Shown piece after piece: positions 4,553 through 24,337 of a stretch of DNA of 34,886 bases (positions are counted from its first letter, which is position 1; every line of letters begins with the position of its first letter). The notes under the pieces are model-generated. The model did not search any database and was not told the origin of the DNA. It saw nothing but the letters and a program-made list of their open reading frames with translations. The position numbers and the translations under genes were made by a program. This DNA comes from Methanobacteriota archaeon (GTDB lineage: Archaea; Thermoplasmatota; Thermoplasmata; RBG-16-68-12): positions 1 through 34,886 of the forward strand of contig VBMB01000029.1 of assembly GCA_005878525.1 (NCBI GenBank). Direction: 5' to 3'.

Positions 4553-5398
4553 TTGCGAATCCGCCGCCTCAAGCTCAAGATCAACGTCGTCGGCGAACGC
4601 GCCGTCGGCAAGACGAGCCTCATCCAGCGCTACGTCGAGGCGCGCCACAACCCGGAATACAAGGGCACCCTCGGCGTCCACCTCCACCGGGTCGACGTCG
4701 AATTGCCCGGCGACGAGGAAGGGGACGTCATCCTGGCGAACATCGCGATCTTCGACCAGATGGGGGAGCACGCGATCCGGGAGAACTTCCGGGATGCGCT
4801 CTTCTATGGCACCCAGGGCGCCCTGGCCGTATGCGACATCGAGCGTCCGGACACCCTGCACACCCTCACGGATTGGATCCGCGCCGTGTCTGTCGTCACG
4901 GGCGGCGTGCCGTTTCGCATCGTCTTCAACAAGGTCGACCGGGCGAAAGGCTCCAAGATCGGGCCCCAGGAGTCTGCGTGGCTCAAGGAGAACTTCCCGG
5001 GCGCGCCGACCTCCCCGACGAGCGCCGCCACGGGCGAGGGCGTCGAAGAGGCGTTCGCGGGGATCATCGGTCAGGCCGTGGACGCGATGATGGCCGGAGA
5101 AAAGAACCGGAAGGTGCGAAAGCTCCTCCGACAACGCATCCTGGTGTTCGCGGCTCGCCGCGAGGGCAACGGGATCACGAAGAGCGAGCTGTTCGCCAAC
5201 ATGCGGGACGTCAAGCCGGACGAGGTCATGGAGGAGCTCGACAACCTCGTGCGCCTGGACCTCCTCGTCCAGTACGACTCCGGCCCGAAGACGTTCCTCA
5301 AGTCGAGCACCTTGCCCGCGACGTTCCGATACCAGATCACGCCGCTCGGCCGCAAGGTCGCGGCGAGCCCGGCCATCGAGGACCTCGTTGTCGAGTAG
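4553..5398 (+). CDS. Ras-like small GTPase fused to a C-terminal winged-helix domain
   Basis: 281 residues. The first 180 or so form a Ras/Rab-type G domain: P-loop GERAVGKTS (14-22), a switch I threonine in KGTLG (T39), NKVD (126-129) and SAATG (from 157). The G3 motif is DQMGE (68-72) rather than the usual DTAGQ, so the residue that normally helps hydrolysis is glutamate. The last 100 residues resemble a winged helix (FAARREGNGITKSELFANM, then MEELDNLVRLDLLVQ), which suggests DNA or protein binding controlled by nucleotide state. The start is a TTG preceded by GGCGGAG; a CTG at 4541 is the only in-frame alternative before a stop. It is divergent from the membrane winged-helix regulator. Confidence 0.88.
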   Translation: MRIRRLKLKINVVGERAVGKTSLIQRYVEARHNPEYKGTLGVHLHRVDVELPGDEEGDVILANIAIFDQMGEHAIRENFRDALFYGTQGALAVCDIERPDTLHTLTDWIRAVSVVTGGVPFRIVFNKVDRAKGSKIGPQESAWLKENFPGAPTSPTSAATGEGVEEAFAGIIGQAVDAMMAGEKNRKVRKLLRQRILVFAARREGNGITKSELFANMRDVKPDEVMEELDNLVRLDLLVQYDSGPKTFLKSSTLPATFRYQITPLGRKVAASPAIEDLVVE

Positions 5399-12091: not shown

Positions 12092-13069
12092 ATGCGCATC
12101 AGACCTCTTGGCATGGTTGCGGTGACAGTCACGTTGGTCGGACTCGCCGTTGCGGCCGTGGCCTTCGGTCCAGCGAATTTCGCGAACCTCGGCTCACCCA
12201 CCGGGGGGAATACTCCGCAAGCCTCGTCGATCGGTACGCCGACCTGGCACGTGGGCGACACCTGGACGTACCACGTGAACTCGACACCGCCCGACGTGTT
12301 TGTGGCGGGTCCGACCTGGGGAAGCCCGTCCCTCGAAGGGACCTTGACCCGCGCGGTCGCGTCCGCAGACGCCTCCCAATACAACGTGACGGTGCACGGC
12401 TCCTTCCACCTGGGCAGCGTGTTCGACGCGGCCCGGGATGGCGGATACACGAACTCTTCGACCTTGCTGTTGTATCGGCCGGTCCTCGAGAACGCGACGG
12501 TGGACGGCTACGCGTTGTATCGCGCGTCCGACCTCGCGGAGCTGAAAGAGGTCCGAACCGTTCATCTCAAGAGCTCGCTCTGGACCGCACGCGGCTGGTT
12601 CAACGCCTCGTACACGGCGACGGTCCAGACGACGTACGAGCCGGCCCTCGACATCTGGGCCTTCCCGCTCGGCGAGAACGAGACCTGGAACGTCTCGAGC
12701 AACGCCACGATCCACGCGATGATCGCGTGGCGCTTTGACGGCCCGAACGAATCGTTCGGTTTCTGGCACACGTTCAACGTGACGGCGCCGATCCGCCTGA
12801 TGCTGCACTCCGGTGAGATTCAGGACGTGACGACACCCGCGGGGACGTTCTCGTCGATCCCGGTTCGCGTCGCGCTGCCGACGATTGATCGCCTGACGAC
12901 GGACGATCGCGAGGGACCCGTGGTGGGCCTCGGAGGCGACGAGTGCGGCAGGCCCCGCCTCGCGGCCGAAGCCTGGTTCAGCGGCGACGTCGGAAACGTC
13001 GTGAAGGCGGTGACCTTCATCGGCGGGATGAGGATCGTCGCCGAGCTCGCGTCGTTCCACCGAGCCTAG
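12092..13069 (+). CDS. Secreted or membrane-tethered protein, hypothetical
   Basis: 325 residues. The N-terminus is a short basic start and one hydrophobic segment (about residues 7-30), a signal peptide or signal anchor. The rest is polar and beta-rich. It contains WHVGDTWTYHV, a sequence common in archaeal secreted proteins, and many N-x-S/T sites, as expected for an N-glycosylated surface protein. The C-terminal stretch AEAWFSGDVGNVVKAV is also recurrent in such proteins. No enzyme motif was seen. The start is chosen because GGAGGAACGGAG ends right before the ATG; an upstream ATG at 12059 lacks such a signal. Confidence 0.8.
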   Translation: MRIRPLGMVAVTVTLVGLAVAAVAFGPANFANLGSPTGGNTPQASSIGTPTWHVGDTWTYHVNSTPPDVFVAGPTWGSPSLEGTLTRAVASADASQYNVTVHGSFHLGSVFDAARDGGYTNSSTLLLYRPVLENATVDGYALYRASDLAELKEVRTVHLKSSLWTARGWFNASYTATVQTTYEPALDIWAFPLGENETWNVSSNATIHAMIAWRFDGPNESFGFWHTFNVTAPIRLMLHSGEIQDVTTPAGTFSSIPVRVALPTIDRLTTDDREGPVVGLGGDECGRPRLAAEAWFSGDVGNVVKAVTFIGGMRIVAELASFHRA

Positions 13070-13092
13070 ACGATTGCAACCGAAATCTGCCG

Positions 13093-13123
13093 CCCTTCCC
13101 CGCGGCATGCGTTGCGGGGAGGG
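13093..13123. terminator. GC-rich hairpin between secreted-protein gene and rpe
   Basis: Arms 13093-13103 and 13114-13123 pair as a ten-base GC stem with one bulged base and a ten-base loop. AAATCTTATT follows at once. It could end the upstream transcript. It also touches the TATA box of the next gene, so it might affect that promoter instead. Confidence 0.45.
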
Positions 13124-13124
13124 A

Positions 13125-13132
13125 AATCTTAT
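13125..13132 (+). promoter_or_regulatory. TATA-like box of rpe
   Basis: AATCTTAT lies 27-34 bases before the ATG at 13159, consistent with a leaderless transcript. Confidence 0.5.
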
Positions 13133-13158
13133 TCCACGGGGGTTCCTTGCGCGGGTCG

Positions 13159-13839
13159 ATGGCCATCAAGATTGCGCCTTCGATCTTGTCTGCGCGGTTC
13201 GACCGCCTGGGGGACCAGGTGCGCGAAGCGTCGGACGCCGGCGCGGACATGCTCCACATCGACGTGATGGATGGCCACTTCGTCCCCAACCTGACGATGG
13301 GACCCGCCATTGTCAAGTCGATCCGGCCCCTGACCACAGTGCCGTTCGACGCCCACCTGATGGTCACGCATCCGCAGGACTTCGTGAAGGCCTTCGTCGA
13401 AGCCGGTGTGGACGACCTCACGGTCCACGTGGAGAGCGACCACGACGTTCGCGCGACGATCCGGGCGATTCGCGATGCCGGGGTCAGCCCCGGCGTCGTC
13501 CTGAACCCGGCCACGCCGTTTGAGAAGAGCGTTCCGTACCTCGGCGACGTCGACCTGCTGCTCGTCATGACGGTCCATCCCGGATTCTCCGGGCAGGCCT
13601 TCCGAGCGGATGTCGTGCCGAAAATCCGCGCCGCCCGGAAGTACGTCGACCAGGAACATCTCGCGGTCGAAATTCAGGTCGATGGCGGGATCAAAGTCGA
13701 CACGGCACCGGTCGTCGCGGAGGCGGGCGCGGACATCCTCGTGTCCGGCAGCGGCATCTTCCCCGACCGCGTCCGAGAGAACGTGATGGCCCTCCGCCGG
13801 GCAGCCGAGAAGGGCCGCGCCAGTTCGAAGCGCATCTAG
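13159..13839 (+). CDS. rpe: Ribulose-phosphate 3-epimerase
   Basis: 226 residues, a full-length TIM-barrel epimerase. The active-site signature is complete: IAPSILSARF (S8), MLHIDVMDGHFVPN with metal ligands H33 and D35, FDAHLMV with H66, and VDGGI with the second catalytic aspartate. MTVHPGFSGQAF is the phosphate-side loop. It interconverts ribulose 5-phosphate and xylulose 5-phosphate and so feeds the transketolase encoded 2 kb away. The start is the ATG placed about 30 bases after a TATA box; the longer frame upstream overlaps the secreted-protein gene and has no family sequence. Confidence 0.95.
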   Translation: MAIKIAPSILSARFDRLGDQVREASDAGADMLHIDVMDGHFVPNLTMGPAIVKSIRPLTTVPFDAHLMVTHPQDFVKAFVEAGVDDLTVHVESDHDVRATIRAIRDAGVSPGVVLNPATPFEKSVPYLGDVDLLLVMTVHPGFSGQAFRADVVPKIRAARKYVDQEHLAVEIQVDGGIKVDTAPVVAEAGADILVSGSGIFPDRVRENVMALRRAAEKGRASSKRI

Positions 13840-14686: not shown

Positions 14687-17600
14687 ATGGCCCGCTGCCC
14701 ACTGTGCGAGTCGGATGTCCCGGACGGGCGGTCCGCGTGCGACGTGTGCGGGCAGCCGTTCGACAGGGGCCTGACGACCCGGGCGGCGCTCGACGTCACG
14801 AAACGGGCGATTGCGGCCGCCCGCAAAGACCTCGTCCCTTCGAGCCGCGACTCGGCCGACCCGTCGTTCGCTCGGAGCTTGCTGGAGCGGGCCGAACAGA
14901 CGGAGGCCGCGGGCGACCTGGGACGGGCTCTGGACCTCGCGCGCGCCTCCCGACGGGTCCTCGAAATCGCGCGGCGCAAGGCGCGGGTCGCGGATGCGCT
15001 CGCTTATGCGGACGCGGTCCTCGACGGCGCCAAAAAAGCCGGCATCGAGACGCTCGCGTTCCAGCGGAACATCGACCAGGCCCGGACGCTCGCAAGCGGG
15101 GGGGACTTCGTCGCGGCGGAACGCCTGCTTCGTCGAGTCTCCATCCGAACGCTCGACCAGCGACGGGAACGAGTCCTCCAGGGAATCGTCGAAAAGGCCC
15201 AGACCCGCGTGCGATACGCGGAAGAGCGCGGCGGGAACGTCGAGGAAGCGGAGGTCCATCTCGCCGAAGCCCGGAACGCGCTCGCCCTGCGCGAGTACAA
15301 TCGCATCCGACCGCTCGCCTCGAAGGCGATCGAGAAGGCGGATGCGCAACGCAAGTATGCGCGCGCCGAGACGATCCTGGACCGCGCCGCGGCGGACGTC
15401 GACGGCGCCCGTCGGGATGGCGTGAACATCGCCGAGGCCCGCAAGGTCCTTACCCAGGCCCGGGACGCGCTCCGACGGGGCGTGTACGCAGACATTCCTC
15501 TCCTCGCTCAGAGAGCCCGGAACGGCTTGCAGGAGGCGCGCCGCTACGCGGTCGCCGACGCGGGCCTTCGGGAGTCCGCCCGCGAAACCGCGCGCGAGCG
15601 TCGGAAGGGCGTGGACGTGAGCCGCGCCGAGACAATCCTCGACGAAGCCGAAACAGCACTCGCGGCGAAAGAATACGGCAAGGTTCGGGCGCTCGCGAAA
15701 GACGCCCACGACGCGGTGCGGGAGGCGTCCCTCCTGCAGACGGTCCGGAACGCGTTCGCCAGTCTCCAGGTCGACGCGGAGGACCTGCGGAGTCTCGGGG
15801 CCGACGCCGCGGATTTTGAACAGATCCTGGTCGATCTCACGAAGGCCGTCGAGGCGAAAGACCTCGCGGCCGCGCGGCGGCTCGTCGCCCGAGCCCGCCA
15901 CTCCGCGGAGAGCGCGCGGGACTCGCACTTCCGAACAATCATGGAACAGTCCTTGCAGATCATCTTGATGAACGCATCTCGCGGCCTCGATCCGGCGGTC
16001 GCCCGGCAGCTCCTGAAAGAGGTCGACGATGCGGTCTCGCTCGGCAAGAGGCTCGATATGCAGGCCCTCATCGACAAGCGCATGGCCGACGCCGACGCCG
16101 AGACGGAGTCGAAGCTGACCGTGCGCGTCCTCCAGGCGCGGGACGACATCGTCGCGCTCCGACAAGGCGGACAGAACGACACCGTCGGCCTGGAGGGGAA
16201 GCTCGCCGACGCCGCCATCGGGATCCAGGAACGCCGGTTCTTCCACGCGGACGCCCTCCTCGACAGCGTCGAGCACGACATCTTCGCGACGCGCGAGCTG
16301 ATGCGGAGCTCCGCGGCCGAGGTCCTCGGGCAGGCGCGCGGCGAGGTCGCGCGGGCGAGGGCCGATGGCATCCAAGTCGACGCCGCGGCGCAGATGTTGC
16401 GAGACGCGGAGACGTCGTACTCCGAGGCCCGCTACGGCGACACGATCTACGCGGGCAAAGCATGCATCTCCGAGGTCGAAGAACTCGCGCACGCCGCCGC
16501 GGACACGAAGCGAAAGTCCGAAGCCGATGTCGCGCGCTCGAAGCTCGATCGCAGGGAGGAGATCCACCGCCGGATGGAGTCCGTCCGGGCCGAGATCCAA
16601 GACCTCCTAGCGCACAACGTCGATCTGGCGCACGCGCTCGAGACGCTCGCGGCGGCAGAGCAAGCGATCGACCGAGGGTCCCTCGAGGAGGCCGAACACC
16701 TGGTCGCCTCGGCGGAGGGGATCGTGACGGGCGTCAAGGTCACCTTGAACCACCAGGCCAAAGGGGCCCTGGAACGCGCCCGGAAGGCGGTGGAGCAGGC
16801 GAGACGCGATGGCGTCGAGACCCCGGAGTTCGCGTCCCTTCTGGTGAGCGCCCAAGCCGCCGTCCAAGACGGCCGGACGGCCGAGGTGCTCCAAGCGACC
16901 GGGGAGATCGACCGGCTCCTTTCGGAAAAGCGACAGGTCCGACATCAGGACGAACAGCGCCGCACGCTGGAGAAGGCGCGGAGCGCCGCGACGAAATTCA
17001 TCACGGTCAAGAAACTCATCATGGACTTGCGAAAGGCGGACATCGACATCACGGGCGCCGAGGAGAGTCTGCGAGCGGCGGAGCATGCGCTCGAGGAGCG
17101 GAACTTCGACGACGTCGATGCGATCCTGACCGACCTGGATGCGACCGCGAAGGAACTGATGGACGAGCTCGTCGCCGCGTCGCGAAACCTGATCGGCCGC
17201 GCGGAGCGCAAGATTCACGAAGCGCGGGACGCCGGACTCGACGTCGACAAGGCGGTCGCCCACCTCGACACCGCGGAAGCCGCGTTCGAGCGAGGGGAGT
17301 ACGCCGACGCGGTCGAGCATGCGCGGGCCGCGGAGAAAGAGGTCGCGGAAGGCCTCCGGGAGATGAAGAGTCGAGAGGCCGAAGCCCGCCGGAGGAACCA
17401 GGAGGCCGCGCGGGCGGAGCTCACCACAATCCGCAAGACGATCTCGGATCTCGCACGCGCCGACATCTCGATCCTCGGAGCGGACTCGGCGCTCAACCGT
17501 GCCGAAGCCGCGTTCGAAGAAGGACGGTTCGAGGACCTCTCGCGGGAATTGACCGAGACGAAGGAGATGGCCGCCCGCCTGAACGACGGACTGGAGGCGG

Positions 17601-20600
17601 CCGCGAAGGACCTCGTGTCATACGTCGAACGCGAGGTCGCCGAAGTGCGCTCCACCGGACTCGATCCGGGGCGGGCGGAGGTCGTCCTGCTCAACGCCCG
17701 CGAGGCGATCAACGACGGACGCTTCGTCGAGGCGATCGAGTACAAGAAGGTCATCGAAGACATCCTCGATGAGACCCGCCGGGACAAGGAGACGCGGGTG
17801 GCCCGGGACAGTCTTTCGGAGCTCCGGGCGAAGGTCGAGGCCCATGCGAAGCTCGGCGCCGATGTGCGATCGGCCTCGGAGATCCTGGCGCGGGCGGAGG
17901 CGATGATCGACGCCGGCGAACTGCACGAGGTCGGCGGATACGCGAAGCGGATCTCCGAAGAAGTCGACCTGGCACGCAAGGCGCATCTCGGTTCCGTGGT
18001 GGGGTCGTTCTCGCCGATGATCGAGGAAGGCGTGTCCCTCGGGCTCCATGAGGAGGAACTCGATGAGTTCCGCGCACACGCGGAGGACGCGGCGGCCGCG
18101 GACGATCTCGAGGAGGTCTACCGGCTCAAAGGCGACTTGCAAGAGCGGCTCCTCGACGCGAAGCGACACCAGATCGTCAAGAGGTCGATGAACGAGATCC
18201 ACAGCCTCGACGAACTCGTCACCCAGTCGGAGCGCCTGGGCGTTCCGTCGGAAGCCGCCCGGACGCACCTGGACGGGGCGCGGAAGGCGATCGAGGAGGG
18301 CAACGTCGACGGCTTCGAGCGCGGACTCACCGACGCCCGCGCATCCTTGGAGGAGTCGCGCAAGTCCCACTTCCTCGACAAATACGAGACCCGGGTCCAC
18401 GCCGTCTCGACGATGATGGCGAACGCAAAACGCCTCGGGGCGGAGCTCGGTGACGCCGAGGGTTCGCTCGAGCAAGCCGAAGCGGCGCTCCGCGCGGGCG
18501 ACATCGCGATGGCGGACATCCTGATCAAGCAAGCCGAAGTCTCGGTCGGCATCCAGATCCAGAATTTCATCAAGAACAAGTACCCGAACCTGTCGCTCCG
18601 CCTGCCGTCGGCCGGCTTGCAGGCGGGGGAGTGGAACCAGTACGTCGTCGAGATCGAGAACCGCGGGAAGTTGCCGGCGCGGAACGTCCAGATCGAGTTC
18701 TCCGGCAACTTGGAGGCGAAAGGCATCGCGCCGATCGCGGAGATCGGCGTGGGCGAGGTCGTCCCGGTCCGGGTCGGCGTGAAGCCGAAAGGCACGGGCG
18801 CGGTTCCGGTCGCGGTCGGGATCACGTACAAACGGTCCTTCGACGAGAACCGCTACGAGGTCCGGGACACGAAGGAGATCAAGGTCGAACCCGAGTCGAC
18901 GTACCTCGTCGAGGACGTGTTCCTGATCCATTCCGACGGACGGCTGATCGCGCATCACAGCCGCAAGTTCCGCGAGGAGATCGACGAGGACATCTTCTCC
19001 GGCATGCTCACGGTCGTCCAAGACTTCGTGAAAGACTCGTTCAAGTCGCGCACGCGCGTCGGGATGAAGCGCCTCGATTTCGGGGACTCGAAGATCCTGA
19101 TCGAGCGATCGCCTCACACGTTCCTCGCGACGGTCCTCGTGGGCAACGAGCCGAAGCTGCTCCCGCTCTACATGCTCCAGGTCCTGAAGGAAGTCGAGGA
19201 CCGGTACGGGAACGTCCTCGAGAGGTGGACGGGTCTCCTGCACCAACTGGAGGGCGTCGACGAGATGATCCAGAAGCTCGTGTTCGTCGCGAAGGAACCG
19301 ACCGCGGACATGGGCGCGCTGTCGGAGAGCCCGGTGACGCTGACCGCGAAAGTGATCGAGGCGCTCGGCGCGACGCAGGCGACCGAAGCGAACGAACTCC
19401 TCGCGAAAGCCCAATCGACGTTGGAGACGGACATCCAGCTCGCGTGGCAGTTCATCGAACAGGCGAAGACGCAGGCGGATCTGGTCAAGAGCCAGCTGCG
19501 GGAACGGATGGGCGAGATCCTGGCCGGCGCCCGCGACACGGTCGGCGAGATGAAAGGGATCGGCGCGGACACGAGCCAGGCGGAGCTCCTCCTGAGGGAG
19601 GCGGAAGAAGCCTACAACGAAGGCAAGTACGAGCGGGTCCGGGAGATCCAGCAGGGCCTTCACGAGTCCCTCGAACGGCACAAGGGCGAGATCGCCGCAA
19701 AGAAGGTCGAGGTCGAACTCGCGTCGCTGATCAACGACATCTCGATCGCGAAGAGCCAGAACCTGGACGTCCGGGAAGCGGAGTCGTACCTCACGAAGAT
19801 CGAGGGGGCGATTCAGAAGAAGAACGCGAGGCAGATGGACGAGTACCTCCGACGGGCGAAAGAATCGCTCGCGCGGCAACGCCGGCGGACGGTCCTCGAC
19901 AAGGCGCGGGCGGACATGGATCGGGTCCGGTCCACGGTGGCCCAGGCGACCACGGTCCACGCAGACCTCTCCGACGTCGAAGCGCTCCTCCAGAAGGCGG
20001 AAGACGCGATGCGCCTCGAGGACCTGAAGGGGGCCGAATCCCTGATCGACCGGGCCGAGGCGACGGCGAGAGCGAAGGTCGAAGGACTCCTGAAAGACCG
20101 CTATCCGCGGCTCTTCCTCGAGACGACGAGCGCCGGGCTGCAGGCGAACCGCTGGAATCGGTTCGAGATGAACATCACGAACAAGGGAAACTGGCCCGCC
20201 GAGCACGTCACGCCAATCGTGACTGGGCCCGTCGAGGTCCAGGGACTTCGGACGATCGAGAAGATCGAACCGAACCAGAAAGTGTCCCTCGAGTTCGGGC
20301 TCAAGCCGAAGGAGGCCGGCACGATGGACTTCGACTTCGAGGTCCACTACACGAGGCCCCTCGACGACGGGAAGCATCAGACGACCGACACGGCCGTCGT
20401 CCGCGTCGAATCCGAGAACGGCTACGTCATCGACGACGGCCTCCTGTTCCATTCGACCGGCGCGTTGGTCTGTCACGAGAGCCGGACGTTCCTGCCCCCT
20501 GAGGAGGCGTCCCGCGCCGCGAACCTCGAGGCGAAGGTCAAGGAGTTCGTGAACCGGGCGTTCCCGAACGGCGGGAAGAGCATCCAGACCGCCACGGTCG

Positions 20601-21844
20601 GCGGGACGACGGTCCTCGCGGCCCGCGGCCCCCAGGCGTTCCTGGCCGTCACCTTGCGAGGGAAGGAACCGGCGATCCTCCCGCTGTACGTCATGCAAGT
20701 CCTCAAAGACATCCACGATTCGTACGGGCCGCGGCTGGAGGAGTGGTCCGGAGACCCGGCGGAACTCCCAGGCATCCGCGATGCGGTTCGCAAGATCCTC
20801 TTCGCGACGGACGTCGCGGGCGTGTCGCTCGGCCCGCTCGAAGACAGCCTGGTCAGCAAGATCCCGATGCTCATGGAGCGCGGTCTCCTCGCGGGGGAAG
20901 GGGACATGGACTTCATGACGTGGGCGCGGACCGCGATCGAGCGGAAGGGATACGACCAGGGCGTGGCGATCCTCCGCCAGGTCTCGGACGCGACCGTCGG
21001 CCCGACCGAGGAGATCTCTCGCCAGATCCGGCAGACGATCATCGCGTCGAAAGAAGCCGGCACCCTCCAGATTTCGGACGAGCAGGTGAACGCGTACGTC
21101 GAGTTCCTGCGGCTCACCCTCGAGGCCGCCTTCCAGGCGAAGCATCGCGCGGGGCTCGAACGATACTGGCCGGTCTCACGCATCGCGGTCAAGACGGTGG
21201 ACCAGGTCGGCTACGACGCCGTGAGCGCGTTCCGCAAGGTCATCGTGGGACAGAGCGGGGCGAAAGAACTCGACCTCGTCTCGCCGAGCGACATGTGGCG
21301 GGGCATGAAGATCGACGTCCAGGTCCACATGGTCTCTGTCAGTGCCGCGTACAAGCTCTGGGCGAAGAAGATCGAAATCCTGCTACGGTCCCAGGACGCT
21401 TGGAAGATCAAGGCAGGACTGGACCGAGGCGAGTACTCCGTGGGAATCGAGGGCCAGAAGGTCCGCATCGACCCGTCGATGGTCTCCTTCATCGAGTCGA
21501 TTCCGGAGTACGTCGTCGAAGAGCCGTTCGAGGGTGGCGTCGTCTACCTCGATACGCGCATGTCGAAGGAGCTCATCGCGGAAGGGTACGCGAAGGAAAT
21601 CGCGAACCTGGTACGCGAGGCCCGGAAGGATATGCGTCTTCCCGACGACCGGATCGTCGAAATCGAACTCGTCGCCGGCAAGCCCTTTCGGGCGATGCTG
21701 CAACCTTGGAAGGACATGATCCTGCGAGATTCGAACGCCCTCGACATGCAGTTCGTCGCGGAACCGAACGCGAACGCGTACGTCATCGAGGCGGGGCTGG
21801 GAGAAGAGACGTTCCTCCTCGGAGTTCGGGCCGCGGAGATGTAG
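14687..21844 (+). CDS. Giant zinc-ribbon / helical-repeat / roadblock-like protein with IleRS-like C-terminal domain
   Basis: 2385 residues in one intact frame. Domains in order: a zinc ribbon CPLC...CDVC (C4, C7, C18, C21); residues about 40-1296, helical repeats of about 65-75 residues, each with a G-hydrophobic-D-hydrophobic turn then AExxLxxAExA; a beta-sandwich (about 1297-1400, YPNLSLRLPSAGLQAGEW); a roadblock/longin-like domain (about 1404-1538, VEDVFLIHSDGRLIAHHS... LLPLYMLQVLKEVEDRYG); more repeats (about 1542-1802); a second sandwich (about 1803-1908) and roadblock-like domain (about 1908-2041); then from about 2152 a region like the C-terminal domain of archaeal IleRS (HRAGLERYWPVSRIAV, VYLDTRMSKELIAEGYAKEI). 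No membrane helix or signal peptide is seen, so it should be cytoplasmic. Catalytic synthetase motifs HIGH and KMSKS are absent. It may be a scaffold; the function is unknown. Confidence 0.9.
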   Translation: MARCPLCESDVPDGRSACDVCGQPFDRGLTTRAALDVTKRAIAAARKDLVPSSRDSADPSFARSLLERAEQTEAAGDLGRALDLARASRRVLEIARRKARVADALAYADAVLDGAKKAGIETLAFQRNIDQARTLASGGDFVAAERLLRRVSIRTLDQRRERVLQGIVEKAQTRVRYAEERGGNVEEAEVHLAEARNALALREYNRIRPLASKAIEKADAQRKYARAETILDRAAADVDGARRDGVNIAEARKVLTQARDALRRGVYADIPLLAQRARNGLQEARRYAVADAGLRESARETARERRKGVDVSRAETILDEAETALAAKEYGKVRALAKDAHDAVREASLLQTVRNAFASLQVDAEDLRSLGADAADFEQILVDLTKAVEAKDLAAARRLVARARHSAESARDSHFRTIMEQSLQIILMNASRGLDPAVARQLLKEVDDAVSLGKRLDMQALIDKRMADADAETESKLTVRVLQARDDIVALRQGGQNDTVGLEGKLADAAIGIQERRFFHADALLDSVEHDIFATRELMRSSAAEVLGQARGEVARARADGIQVDAAAQMLRDAETSYSEARYGDTIYAGKACISEVEELAHAAADTKRKSEADVARSKLDRREEIHRRMESVRAEIQDLLAHNVDLAHALETLAAAEQAIDRGSLEEAEHLVASAEGIVTGVKVTLNHQAKGALERARKAVEQARRDGVETPEFASLLVSAQAAVQDGRTAEVLQATGEIDRLLSEKRQVRHQDEQRRTLEKARSAATKFITVKKLIMDLRKADIDITGAEESLRAAEHALEERNFDDVDAILTDLDATAKELMDELVAASRNLIGRAERKIHEARDAGLDVDKAVAHLDTAEAAFERGEYADAVEHARAAEKEVAEGLREMKSREAEARRRNQEAARAELTTIRKTISDLARADISILGADSALNRAEAAFEEGRFEDLSRELTETKEMAARLNDGLEAAAKDLVSYVEREVAEVRSTGLDPGRAEVVLLNAREAINDGRFVEAIEYKKVIEDILDETRRDKETRVARDSLSELRAKVEAHAKLGADVRSASEILARAEAMIDAGELHEVGGYAKRISEEVDLARKAHLGSVVGSFSPMIEEGVSLGLHEEELDEFRAHAEDAAAADDLEEVYRLKGDLQERLLDAKRHQIVKRSMNEIHSLDELVTQSERLGVPSEAARTHLDGARKAIEEGNVDGFERGLTDARASLEESRKSHFLDKYETRVHAVSTMMANAKRLGAELGDAEGSLEQAEAALRAGDIAMADILIKQAEVSVGIQIQNFIKNKYPNLSLRLPSAGLQAGEWNQYVVEIENRGKLPARNVQIEFSGNLEAKGIAPIAEIGVGEVVPVRVGVKPKGTGAVPVAVGITYKRSFDENRYEVRDTKEIKVEPESTYLVEDVFLIHSDGRLIAHHSRKFREEIDEDIFSGMLTVVQDFVKDSFKSRTRVGMKRLDFGDSKILIERSPHTFLATVLVGNEPKLLPLYMLQVLKEVEDRYGNVLERWTGLLHQLEGVDEMIQKLVFVAKEPTADMGALSESPVTLTAKVIEALGATQATEANELLAKAQSTLETDIQLAWQFIEQAKTQADLVKSQLRERMGEILAGARDTVGEMKGIGADTSQAELLLREAEEAYNEGKYERVREIQQGLHESLERHKGEIAAKKVEVELASLINDISIAKSQNLDVREAESYLTKIEGAIQKKNARQMDEYLRRAKESLARQRRRTVLDKARADMDRVRSTVAQATTVHADLSDVEALLQKAEDAMRLEDLKGAESLIDRAEATARAKVEGLLKDRYPRLFLETTSAGLQANRWNRFEMNITNKGNWPAEHVTPIVTGPVEVQGLRTIEKIEPNQKVSLEFGLKPKEAGTMDFDFEVHYTRPLDDGKHQTTDTAVVRVESENGYVIDDGLLFHSTGALVCHESRTFLPPEEASRAANLEAKVKEFVNRAFPNGGKSIQTATVGGTTVLAARGPQAFLAVTLRGKEPAILPLYVMQVLKDIHDSYGPRLEEWSGDPAELPGIRDAVRKILFATDVAGVSLGPLEDSLVSKIPMLMERGLLAGEGDMDFMTWARTAIERKGYDQGVAILRQVSDATVGPTEEISRQIRQTIIASKEAGTLQISDEQVNAYVEFLRLTLEAAFQAKHRAGLERYWPVSRIAVKTVDQVGYDAVSAFRKVIVGQSGAKELDLVSPSDMWRGMKIDVQVHMVSVSAAYKLWAKKIEILLRSQDAWKIKAGLDRGEYSVGIEGQKVRIDPSMVSFIESIPEYVVEEPFEGGVVYLDTRMSKELIAEGYAKEIANLVREARKDMRLPDDRIVEIELVAGKPFRAMLQPWKDMILRDSNALDMQFVAEPNANAYVIEAGLGEETFLLGVRAAEM

Positions 21845-23320: not shown

Positions 23321-24337
23321 ATGGGCATCAACCTCGCGGACATCGTCATCTCCGAACCGCGGACGCTAGAGGACTTCTCCGGCAAAATCCTCGCCATCGA
23401 CGCCTTCAACACGCTCTACCAGTTCCTCGCCATCATCCGCCAGCCGGACGGAACGCCGCTGATGGATCACCAGGGCCGCGTGACGTCGCACCTGTCCGGG
23501 ATCATCTACCGCGTCTCGAACTTCGTGGCCGCGGGAATCAAGCCCGCGTTCGTCTTCGACGGGGAGCCGCCACGGCTCAAGGCGCGGACGATCGTGGCCC
23601 GAGGCGAGATCAAGCGCCGCGCGGAGCGCGAGTGGCGAGAGGCGGTGGAAATCGGGGATCTCGCGACCGCTCGGACGAAGGCGATGCAAACCTCGCGGCT
23701 CACCGAGGAGATGGTCGACCAATCGAAGCGACTTCTGGACCTGCTCGGATTCCCATGGGTCCAAGCGCCCGCAGAGGGAGAGGCACAGGCGAGCGCGATG
23801 GCCCGGACCGGGGTCGCATACGCGGCGGCGTCGCAAGATTTCGACTCCCTGCTGTTCGGCTCGCCGCGGCTCGTGAAGAACCTCGCGATCACCGGTCGCC
23901 GGAAGCTGCCCCGGAAGGACGTCTACGTGGACGTGCAACCGGAGGAGATCTCCCTCGAGGCCACGTTAGCGAACCTGGGCATCACGCGCGAACAGCTCGT
24001 CGATATGGGCTTGCTGATCGGGACGGACTTCAACGAGGGCGTGAAAGGAATCGGGCCGAAGAAGGCGCTCGCGCTGATCAAGAAACACGGGTCCCTCGAA
24101 CCGGCCCTCGAAGAGCTCGGGGTCGAGATCGAATCGAAGGACGAGGTCCGCGAGATCTTCCTGAAGCCGAACGTCCTTCCGAACGTCGAACTCCGATTCC
24201 GTAATCCGGATGCCGACGGCGTCCGACGGATGCTGTGCGACGAACACGACTTCTCGCCCGACCGAATCAACGCCGCGTTGGGGAAATTCGGAAGCGCTCG
24301 ATCGGAGCAGAAGCAGCGGTCCCTCGACTCCTGGTAA
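23321..24337 (+). CDS. fen: Flap endonuclease 1
   Basis: 338 residues, the usual archaeal length. The N-terminal XPG region has AIDAFNTLYQF (D27) and FVFDGEPP (D79); the internal region has APAEGEAQASAMA and ASQDFDSLLFG with the metal-binding acids; the helix-hairpin-helix is GTDFNEGVKGIGPKKAL. The last residues, QRSLDSW, form a PCNA-interacting motif that ends on the tryptophan without the usual final aromatic residue. The enzyme removes 5' flaps during Okazaki fragment maturation and base excision repair. It stands at the head of a plus-strand pair with DUF92, which has its own TATA box. Confidence 0.96.
   Translation: MGINLADIVISEPRTLEDFSGKILAIDAFNTLYQFLAIIRQPDGTPLMDHQGRVTSHLSGIIYRVSNFVAAGIKPAFVFDGEPPRLKARTIVARGEIKRRAEREWREAVEIGDLATARTKAMQTSRLTEEMVDQSKRLLDLLGFPWVQAPAEGEAQASAMARTGVAYAAASQDFDSLLFGSPRLVKNLAITGRRKLPRKDVYVDVQPEEISLEATLANLGITREQLVDMGLLIGTDFNEGVKGIGPKKALALIKKHGSLEPALEELGVEIESKDEVREIFLKPNVLPNVELRFRNPDADGVRRMLCDEHDFSPDRINAALGKFGSARSEQKQRSLDSW

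Follow-up and report, generated by a model that had tools for sequence, protein, structure and literature searches.

We identified, in the window (the whole 34,886-nucleotide stretch analyzed here, one complete contig of an uncultured soil archaeon), a gene for a 2,385-residue protein in which a zinc ribbon, ~19 three-helix repeats, a CARDB-longin pair, further repeats, a second CARDB-longin pair, a helical linker, and an IleRS-derived tail follow one another in a single chain (Table 1). On balance, we lean toward this protein being a cytoplasmic scaffold that binds GTPases and uses its repurposed IleRS tail to dock a partner, and it is called the scaffold below. The longin/roadblock-GTPase kind of system is already known; the giant rod architecture with an IleRS-derived tail is a new variation on it.

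Table 1. Features of the scaffold gene, its conserved neighbors, and two IleRS genes. Coordinates are those of the window unless a locus is named.
Feature	Residues	Location	Strand	Evidence or remark
Ribulose-phosphate 3-epimerase (rpe)		12943..13839	+	Conserved upstream neighbor
Whole scaffold gene	1-2385	14687..21844	+	Open frame; full-length orthologs; dN/dS by region
Zinc ribbon, CPLC-x10-CDVC	4-24	14696..14758	+	Weak DZR_2/DZR matches; ortholog N-termini
N-terminal helical array, ~19 three-helix units of 63-66 aa	~35-1290	14789..18556	+	Autocorrelation; recurring motif
CARDB immunoglobulin-like domain 1	1300-1402	18584..18892	+	Pfam CARDB (1.4e-5); modeled beta sandwich
Longin-fold domain 1	1406-1535	18902..19291	+	Topology b-b-a-b-b-b-a-a; Foldseek; most conserved part of the scaffold
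Second helical array	1543-1803	19313..20095	+	AlphaFold2 model; autocorrelation
CARDB/Ig-like domain 2	1809-1909	20111..20413	+	HYDIN_VesB Ig-like in 13/19 orthologs; modeled beta sandwich
Longin-fold domain 2	1915-2040	20429..20806	+	AlphaFold2 model; alignments
Helical linker	2041-2130	20807..21076	+	AlphaFold2 model
IleRS-derived tail (region after Anticodon_1, through DUF5915)	2131-2380	21077..21826	+	Pfam; profile; Foldseek; tree
FEN1-type (XPG) nuclease (fen1)		23321..24337	+	Conserved downstream neighbor
IleRS gene with C-terminal extension		L142:2-2098	+	Pfam
IleRS gene with C-terminal extension		L040:9310-13806	+	Pfam

The frame runs for 2,385 codons without a stop, and orthologs of the same length within the genus are 60-79% identical to it. 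Comparison of the window gene with that of L010 (protein identity 79%) gave dN/dS values of 0.09-0.28 across all regions, with longin 1 having the lowest dN of all (0.062) and CARDB domain 2 and the IleRS-derived tail the lowest dN/dS (0.09 each). Every region of the scaffold is under purifying selection, and since this holds throughout, the unbroken frame of more than 7 kb noticed in the sequence-only reading is a translated, constrained, and real gene. The source genome is a metagenome assembly of 165 contigs (81% complete), which could have favored a gene fusion or frame error in that single assembly; however, independent assemblies, including the single-contig genomes G035 and G060, show the same architecture, and these orthologs already refute an artefact, to which we give practically no credence. 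An antisense ORF of 1,175 aa (17618-21145, - strand) was rejected as a gene; it carries extra stops in two relatives and resembles a high-GC shadow. No transmembrane segment was found in the scaffold, the 19-residue hydropathy maximum being 1.39, as had been read from the sequence alone. Together with the helical rods, this supports the cytoplasmic, non-membrane scaffold proposed in that reading, while no direct evidence was found for its further proposal of a filament-like organizer.

To describe the architecture, residues 1240-2385 were modeled with AlphaFold2 from 19 orthologs (mean pLDDT 83.6, pTM 0.40). The model shows, in order, a beta sandwich, a domain of topology b-b-a-b-b-b-a-a, a helical array, a second sandwich, a domain of topology b-b-a-b-b-b-a, a helical linker, and an alpha/beta tail; since its pTM is low, it does not fix the placement of these domains relative to one another. 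The second array alternates between helices of ~43 and ~15 aa, repeating every 66 aa. The N-terminal ~1,250 residues, in which autocorrelation is seen at 63, 66, and 126 residues and the motif G-x-D-x3-A-x3-L-x2-A recurs, are taken from their sequence as ~19 units resembling the modeled repeats of residues 1543-1803. The long helical repeat arrays noticed earlier are therefore borne out, with a period of 63-66 aa, and the CxxC...CxxC ribbon (CPLC...CDVC) is likewise real, though its DZR_2 and DZR matches are weak; it is present in families f1 and f6 and was not seen at the predicted starts in f2 and f20. CARDB copy 1 passes Pfam (residues 1307-1387, 25.6 bits vs. a cut-off of 22.7) and was matched in 19/19 orthologs, whereas copy 2 is recognized by fold and by other Ig models only, not by Pfam CARDB. 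Two beta-sandwich/roadblock-like modules had been proposed from the sequence; both exist, and each is more precisely a tandem pair in which a CARDB sandwich is followed by a separate alpha/beta domain of longin topology. Single Pfam matches such as FliS and Gp-FAR-1 fell under the cut-off and were taken as chance, and Foldseek matches to complement C3 and alpha-2-macroglobulin, which are multi-domain Ig chains superposed at an rmsd around or above 30 A, were discarded as meaningless.

The same genome encodes a 1,495-aa paralog (L139:2919-7406, - strand) that has similar helical repeats and a CARDB domain (27% identity over CARDB) and, unlike the scaffold, ends in a RING-like zinc domain and lacks both longin and IleRS tail. 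This paralog, and the fact that a helical array of variable length makes up more than half of the scaffold, would suit a structural rod of the cell envelope or cytoskeleton, in which the repeats do the work and no GTPase signaling is involved, the longin, CARDB, and IleRS-derived domains being only assembly contacts. However, conservation within the scaffold is lowest in the N-terminal array, which differs in length among families, and highest in longin 1 and the tail; we therefore consider a purely structural rod unlikely.

Longin 1 was modeled alone from an alignment of 70 domain copies from the scaffold and other proteins (pTM 0.74). In a Foldseek search of the PDB, the best ~35 matches of this model were all longin/roadblock domains, including those of AP-1/2/3/4 sigma, zeta-COP, Mon1-Ccz1, MglB, Asgard Roadblock3, Ragulator, and Sec22b, the longin of the last giving the best TM-score shown (TMt 0.71). 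At the level of sequence, 11 of the 70 family members weakly matched Robl_LC7 (best 1.7e-5) and three matched Fuz_longin; longin 1 of the window matched no curated Pfam model above cut-off, and a profile of the longin family found nothing significant in the PDB. As modeled, residues 1406-1535 belong to the longin/roadblock superfamily, with a five-stranded sheet and a central helix. Compared with roadblocks, longins have no N-terminal helix but one more at the C-terminus (PMC10933270). Since the longin 1 model likewise lacks the N-terminal helix and has the C-terminal one, its order of elements argues for a longin and not a roadblock, and the domain represents a longin-type branch for which no curated family exists. 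In family f1, longin 2 has diverged from copy 1 (34% identical, with the DxDIxSGML helix signature lost); in f2, f3, and f20, the two copies are more alike. The f20 ortholog (L041:4291-10806, - strand) has three CARDB-longin modules instead of two and an unrelated neighborhood.

Domains of the longin/roadblock type usually pair with Ras-like switches, and a small GTPase sensed by the protein had been part of the sequence-only reading. Among relatives, comparison of scaffold loci revealed no conserved GTPase among the neighboring genes. The window does encode a Ras-family GTPase (4553-5398, + strand) with a C-terminal extension resembling a winged helix; it was rejected as the scaffold's fixed partner, being 9 kb off and not generally kept there in relatives. 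The other longin genes give indirect support. The source genome has 13 longin matches, two of them within the scaffold, and the remaining genes include those for apparent surface proteins, stand-alone longins, and a 7TM-DUF835-longin protein. Outside the scaffold, a Ras-like GTPase is present in 18/55 longin loci, on the same strand in all 18, and Pfam confirmed the Ras family for the GTPases checked; in L121, L125, L135, and L137 only 100-312 bases separate GTPase and longin match. Because one orthologous group holds most of the 18 loci, these amount to ~6-7 independent contexts. In that group, a membrane protein of ~1,400 aa is encoded downstream of the GTPase, and ~3.9 kb separate the GTPase from the longin match. 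Indeed, the pair of a ~183-aa Ras-like GTPase and a ~1,400-aa surface-like protein with a terminal longin is conserved in many Thermoplasmatota assemblies (L089, L094, L095, L097, L100, L104, L107, L109, L112, L114, L115, and L119).

Within the source genome, a GTPase lies less than 1 kb from 2/9 longin genes outside the scaffold (chance 0.006) and less than 5 kb from 3/9 (chance 0.015). Per genome, the order shows 7-20 matches to Ras-like GTPases and as many as 19 to the longin family; 13 GTPase matches occur in the source genome and up to 35 in the relative G060. Across 22 families, the copy numbers of GTPases and longins co-vary (Spearman rho 0.86, p 3e-7), a correlation of which shared ancestry and genome size may be the source. 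These results support a GTPase role for the longin-domain family. For the scaffold itself, whose own neighbors are not GTPases, we infer GTPase binding from the fold and from the gene context of its relatives, and longin 1 probably binds a Ras-like GTPase. Some longins, e.g., SNARE longins, do not regulate GTPases (PMC10933270).

Approximately five longin proteins of the source genome appear, from segments read by eye, to consist of an outer part, one membrane segment, and a C-terminal longin. Taken with the Foldseek likeness to the AP sigma longin and to the Ig domains of adaptin/GGA appendages, they could point to an adaptor or coat-like protein that combines a helical trunk, an Ig-like ear, and a longin in a single polypeptide and recruits membrane receptors through the longins of membrane-anchored relatives. 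However, the likeness to clathrin/COPI adaptor subunits is at the level of fold only, with no sequence kinship seen, and the helical part is of another kind, the modeled trunk resembling three-helix bundles and not a HEAT-type solenoid. Internal membranes are not known in these archaea, and we regard a coat-like role as very improbable.

The tail of the scaffold is, by descent, the C-terminal DUF5915 region of IleRS. Pfam DUF5915 matches residues 2228-2367 (3.7e-8), and the tail matched IleRS structures in the PDB both by profile (5e-12) and by Foldseek (1e-11; 8c8v, 8wnd), corresponding over its whole length to residues 831-1036 of ScIleRS and 126-349 of L142. It is thus homologous to the C-terminal region of Type 2 IleRS by sequence, profile, and fold, confirming the IleRS-like region noticed earlier; the scaffold differs from that enzyme in having no catalytic, editing, or Anticodon_1 domain, and Pfam found neither the Rossmann catalytic domain nor Anticodon_1 in the protein. 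An NCBIfam match to the mupirocin-resistance IleRS MupA (23.6 bits vs. a cut-off of 1900) reflects the shared IleRS tail only. Structure prediction with a PDB fold search, which the sequence-only reading had suggested, recovered both longin/roadblock and IleRS folds within residues 1240-2385. A maximum-likelihood tree built from 40 sequences places the scaffold tails in a single group (support 93/95), which clusters with the IleRSs of their own class and is separated from those of the rest of the phylum (support 100/99); the exact sister of the tails is unsure because of two long branches (L041 and L048). These sequences are most simply read as the product of one capture event, with an IleRS of the lineage as donor, and of vertical descent thereafter.

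Considering that the residues near-invariant in IleRSs of the phylum (K.R.P, N.K, RRIQ.MRK, and ETR) are mostly lost from the scaffold tails, which instead share a motif of their own (SQ..WKIK.GL.KG.Y), an IleRS-like contact with tRNA is doubted. The tail also has a negative net charge, as does its counterpart region in IleRS. RNA binding through the tail, as proposed from the sequence alone, is consequently unsupported in that form, and tRNA binding appears doubtful from the residues retained.

Two gene contexts are conserved. In f1, f4, f5, and f6, rpe lies upstream of the scaffold and fen1 and DUF92 after it; contigs that extend far enough also show pgm, a nucleotidyltransferase, and LSm further on. 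In nearly every f2 and f3 locus, ileS comes directly after the scaffold on the same strand, and in f14, where no scaffold was found, fen1 adjoins ileS. These arrangements would fit a tail that arose when the 3' part of ileS was duplicated locally, and they show the neighborhood conservation that had been proposed as a check.

The IleRS enzyme of this class is itself unusual. Beyond DUF5915, it carries a helix-hairpin-helix, double zinc ribbons, and DUF835 (Pfam; L142 and L040), and DUF835 also matches the IleRS frames of many class relatives. IleRS is 1,230-1,540 aa long in the class vs. mostly ~1,000-1,100 aa elsewhere in the phylum, and the C-terminal extension occurs in many sampled families of the class and is absent from most of the phylum. 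DUF835 is listed as an inactive KaiC-like domain of archaeal response regulators (PMC5847659). It is fused to a scaffold-type longin in the 7TM protein of the source genome (L132:2663-4258, + strand), which joins a histidine-kinase type N-terminal region, DUF835, and longin, and is likely a membrane receptor without a kinase domain. Hence, IleRS gained a signaling-type DUF835, and a signaling-type scaffold received an IleRS domain; of all hints that the two systems touch, this one is the strongest, albeit circumstantial.

This exchange bears on the possibility that the scaffold is a sensor of translation status, its tail still binding tRNA-Ile or IleRS and reporting amino-acid supply to a Ras-like GTPase, by analogy with LeuRS and the Rag GTPases of eukaryotes. 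Such a sensor would agree with the descent of the tail from the tRNA-binding region of IleRS, its very low dN/dS, the adjoining ileS in two families, and the signaling-type DUF835 of the class IleRS. However, Anticodon_1 is absent and most near-invariant IleRS residues are gone from the tail, and its net charge is negative, though that of the IleRS region is equally so; a sensor of this type seems rather unlikely.

The architecture is widespread in the order. The scaffold was found in 36/37 order genomes, the exception (G007) being 75% complete, and among the class genomes sampled it occurs beyond the order only in f20 (G050 and G060); the same domain order was thus present in other Thermoplasmatota, as the sequence-only reading had suggested checking. 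Its near relatives are uncultured 'Euryarchaeota/Thermoplasmata' assemblies (Thermoplasmatota), many of them soil-derived. In a DUF5915 search of 117 phylum genomes, the window scaffold was the only match whose frame exceeded ~1,450 aa, the others being of synthetase length, and in a scan of ~85,000 species, long matches among the best 80 stretches came only from Thermoplasmatota-type assemblies. A search of the open-access literature returned no account of the scaffold architecture, of a DUF835-bearing IleRS, or of the Thermoplasmatota longin family; this agrees, as weak evidence, with the earlier statement that no described system has these parts.

Among known systems, MglB and the other roadblock/longin partners of MglA/Ras-like GTPases in bacterial conservons and Asgard share the superfamily fold of the scaffold domain and, like 18/55 loci of its domain family, are linked to Ras-like GTPase genes; the scaffold gene itself shows no such link. 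An MglB-type regulator is a dimer that binds the GTPase and alters its cycle. Such partners are small stand-alone domains or GTPase fusions, in contrast to a 2,385-aa rod with longin topology and an IleRS-derived tail. Ragulator/Rag with LeuRS, which serves eukaryotic amino-acid sensing, resembles the scaffold in concept only, both combining a roadblock/longin platform, a small GTPase, and a synthetase-related part; homology of the systems is not evidenced, and in the scaffold the parts are fused in one chain of putative function.

Returning to the GTPase-binding scaffold that we favor, the protein would be a single-copy cytoplasmic platform of a small-GTPase network, with the rod-like three-helix repeats likely acting as spacer and assembly surface. 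The CARDB-longin modules would serve as longin platforms for binding at least one of the organism's many Ras-like GTPases; longin 1 is the likely contact site and longin 2 would be its diverged partner in the genus, possibly pairing with it within the chain. The tail, captured once from the IleRS of the lineage, would have been repurposed as a docking domain, and its partner would most likely be a protein, such as IleRS itself or a translation factor, rather than tRNA bound in the manner of IleRS. The scaffold may, in this way, link small-GTPase signaling to IleRS or another translation-related partner.

Longins and extensive Ras-like GTPase repertoires are usually treated as traits of Asgard or of eukaryotes. 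In this Thermoplasmatota order, many of both occur, partly in shared clusters, together with a conserved giant longin-synthetase protein. A more ambitious reading is that a longin/Ras-like-GTPase network of a non-Asgard order has a giant scaffold that reads the state of IleRS or tRNA-Ile through its captured domain and that IleRS shares DUF835 with the same signaling proteins, which would make an independent parallel to synthetase-Rag-Ragulator; we offer this as speculation with a low chance of being correct. If the tail does read IleRS or tRNA, it would represent a new translation-to-GTPase signaling route in archaea. If it does not, the scaffold would still offer a clear example of a synthetase domain that was captured a single time and put to a different use.
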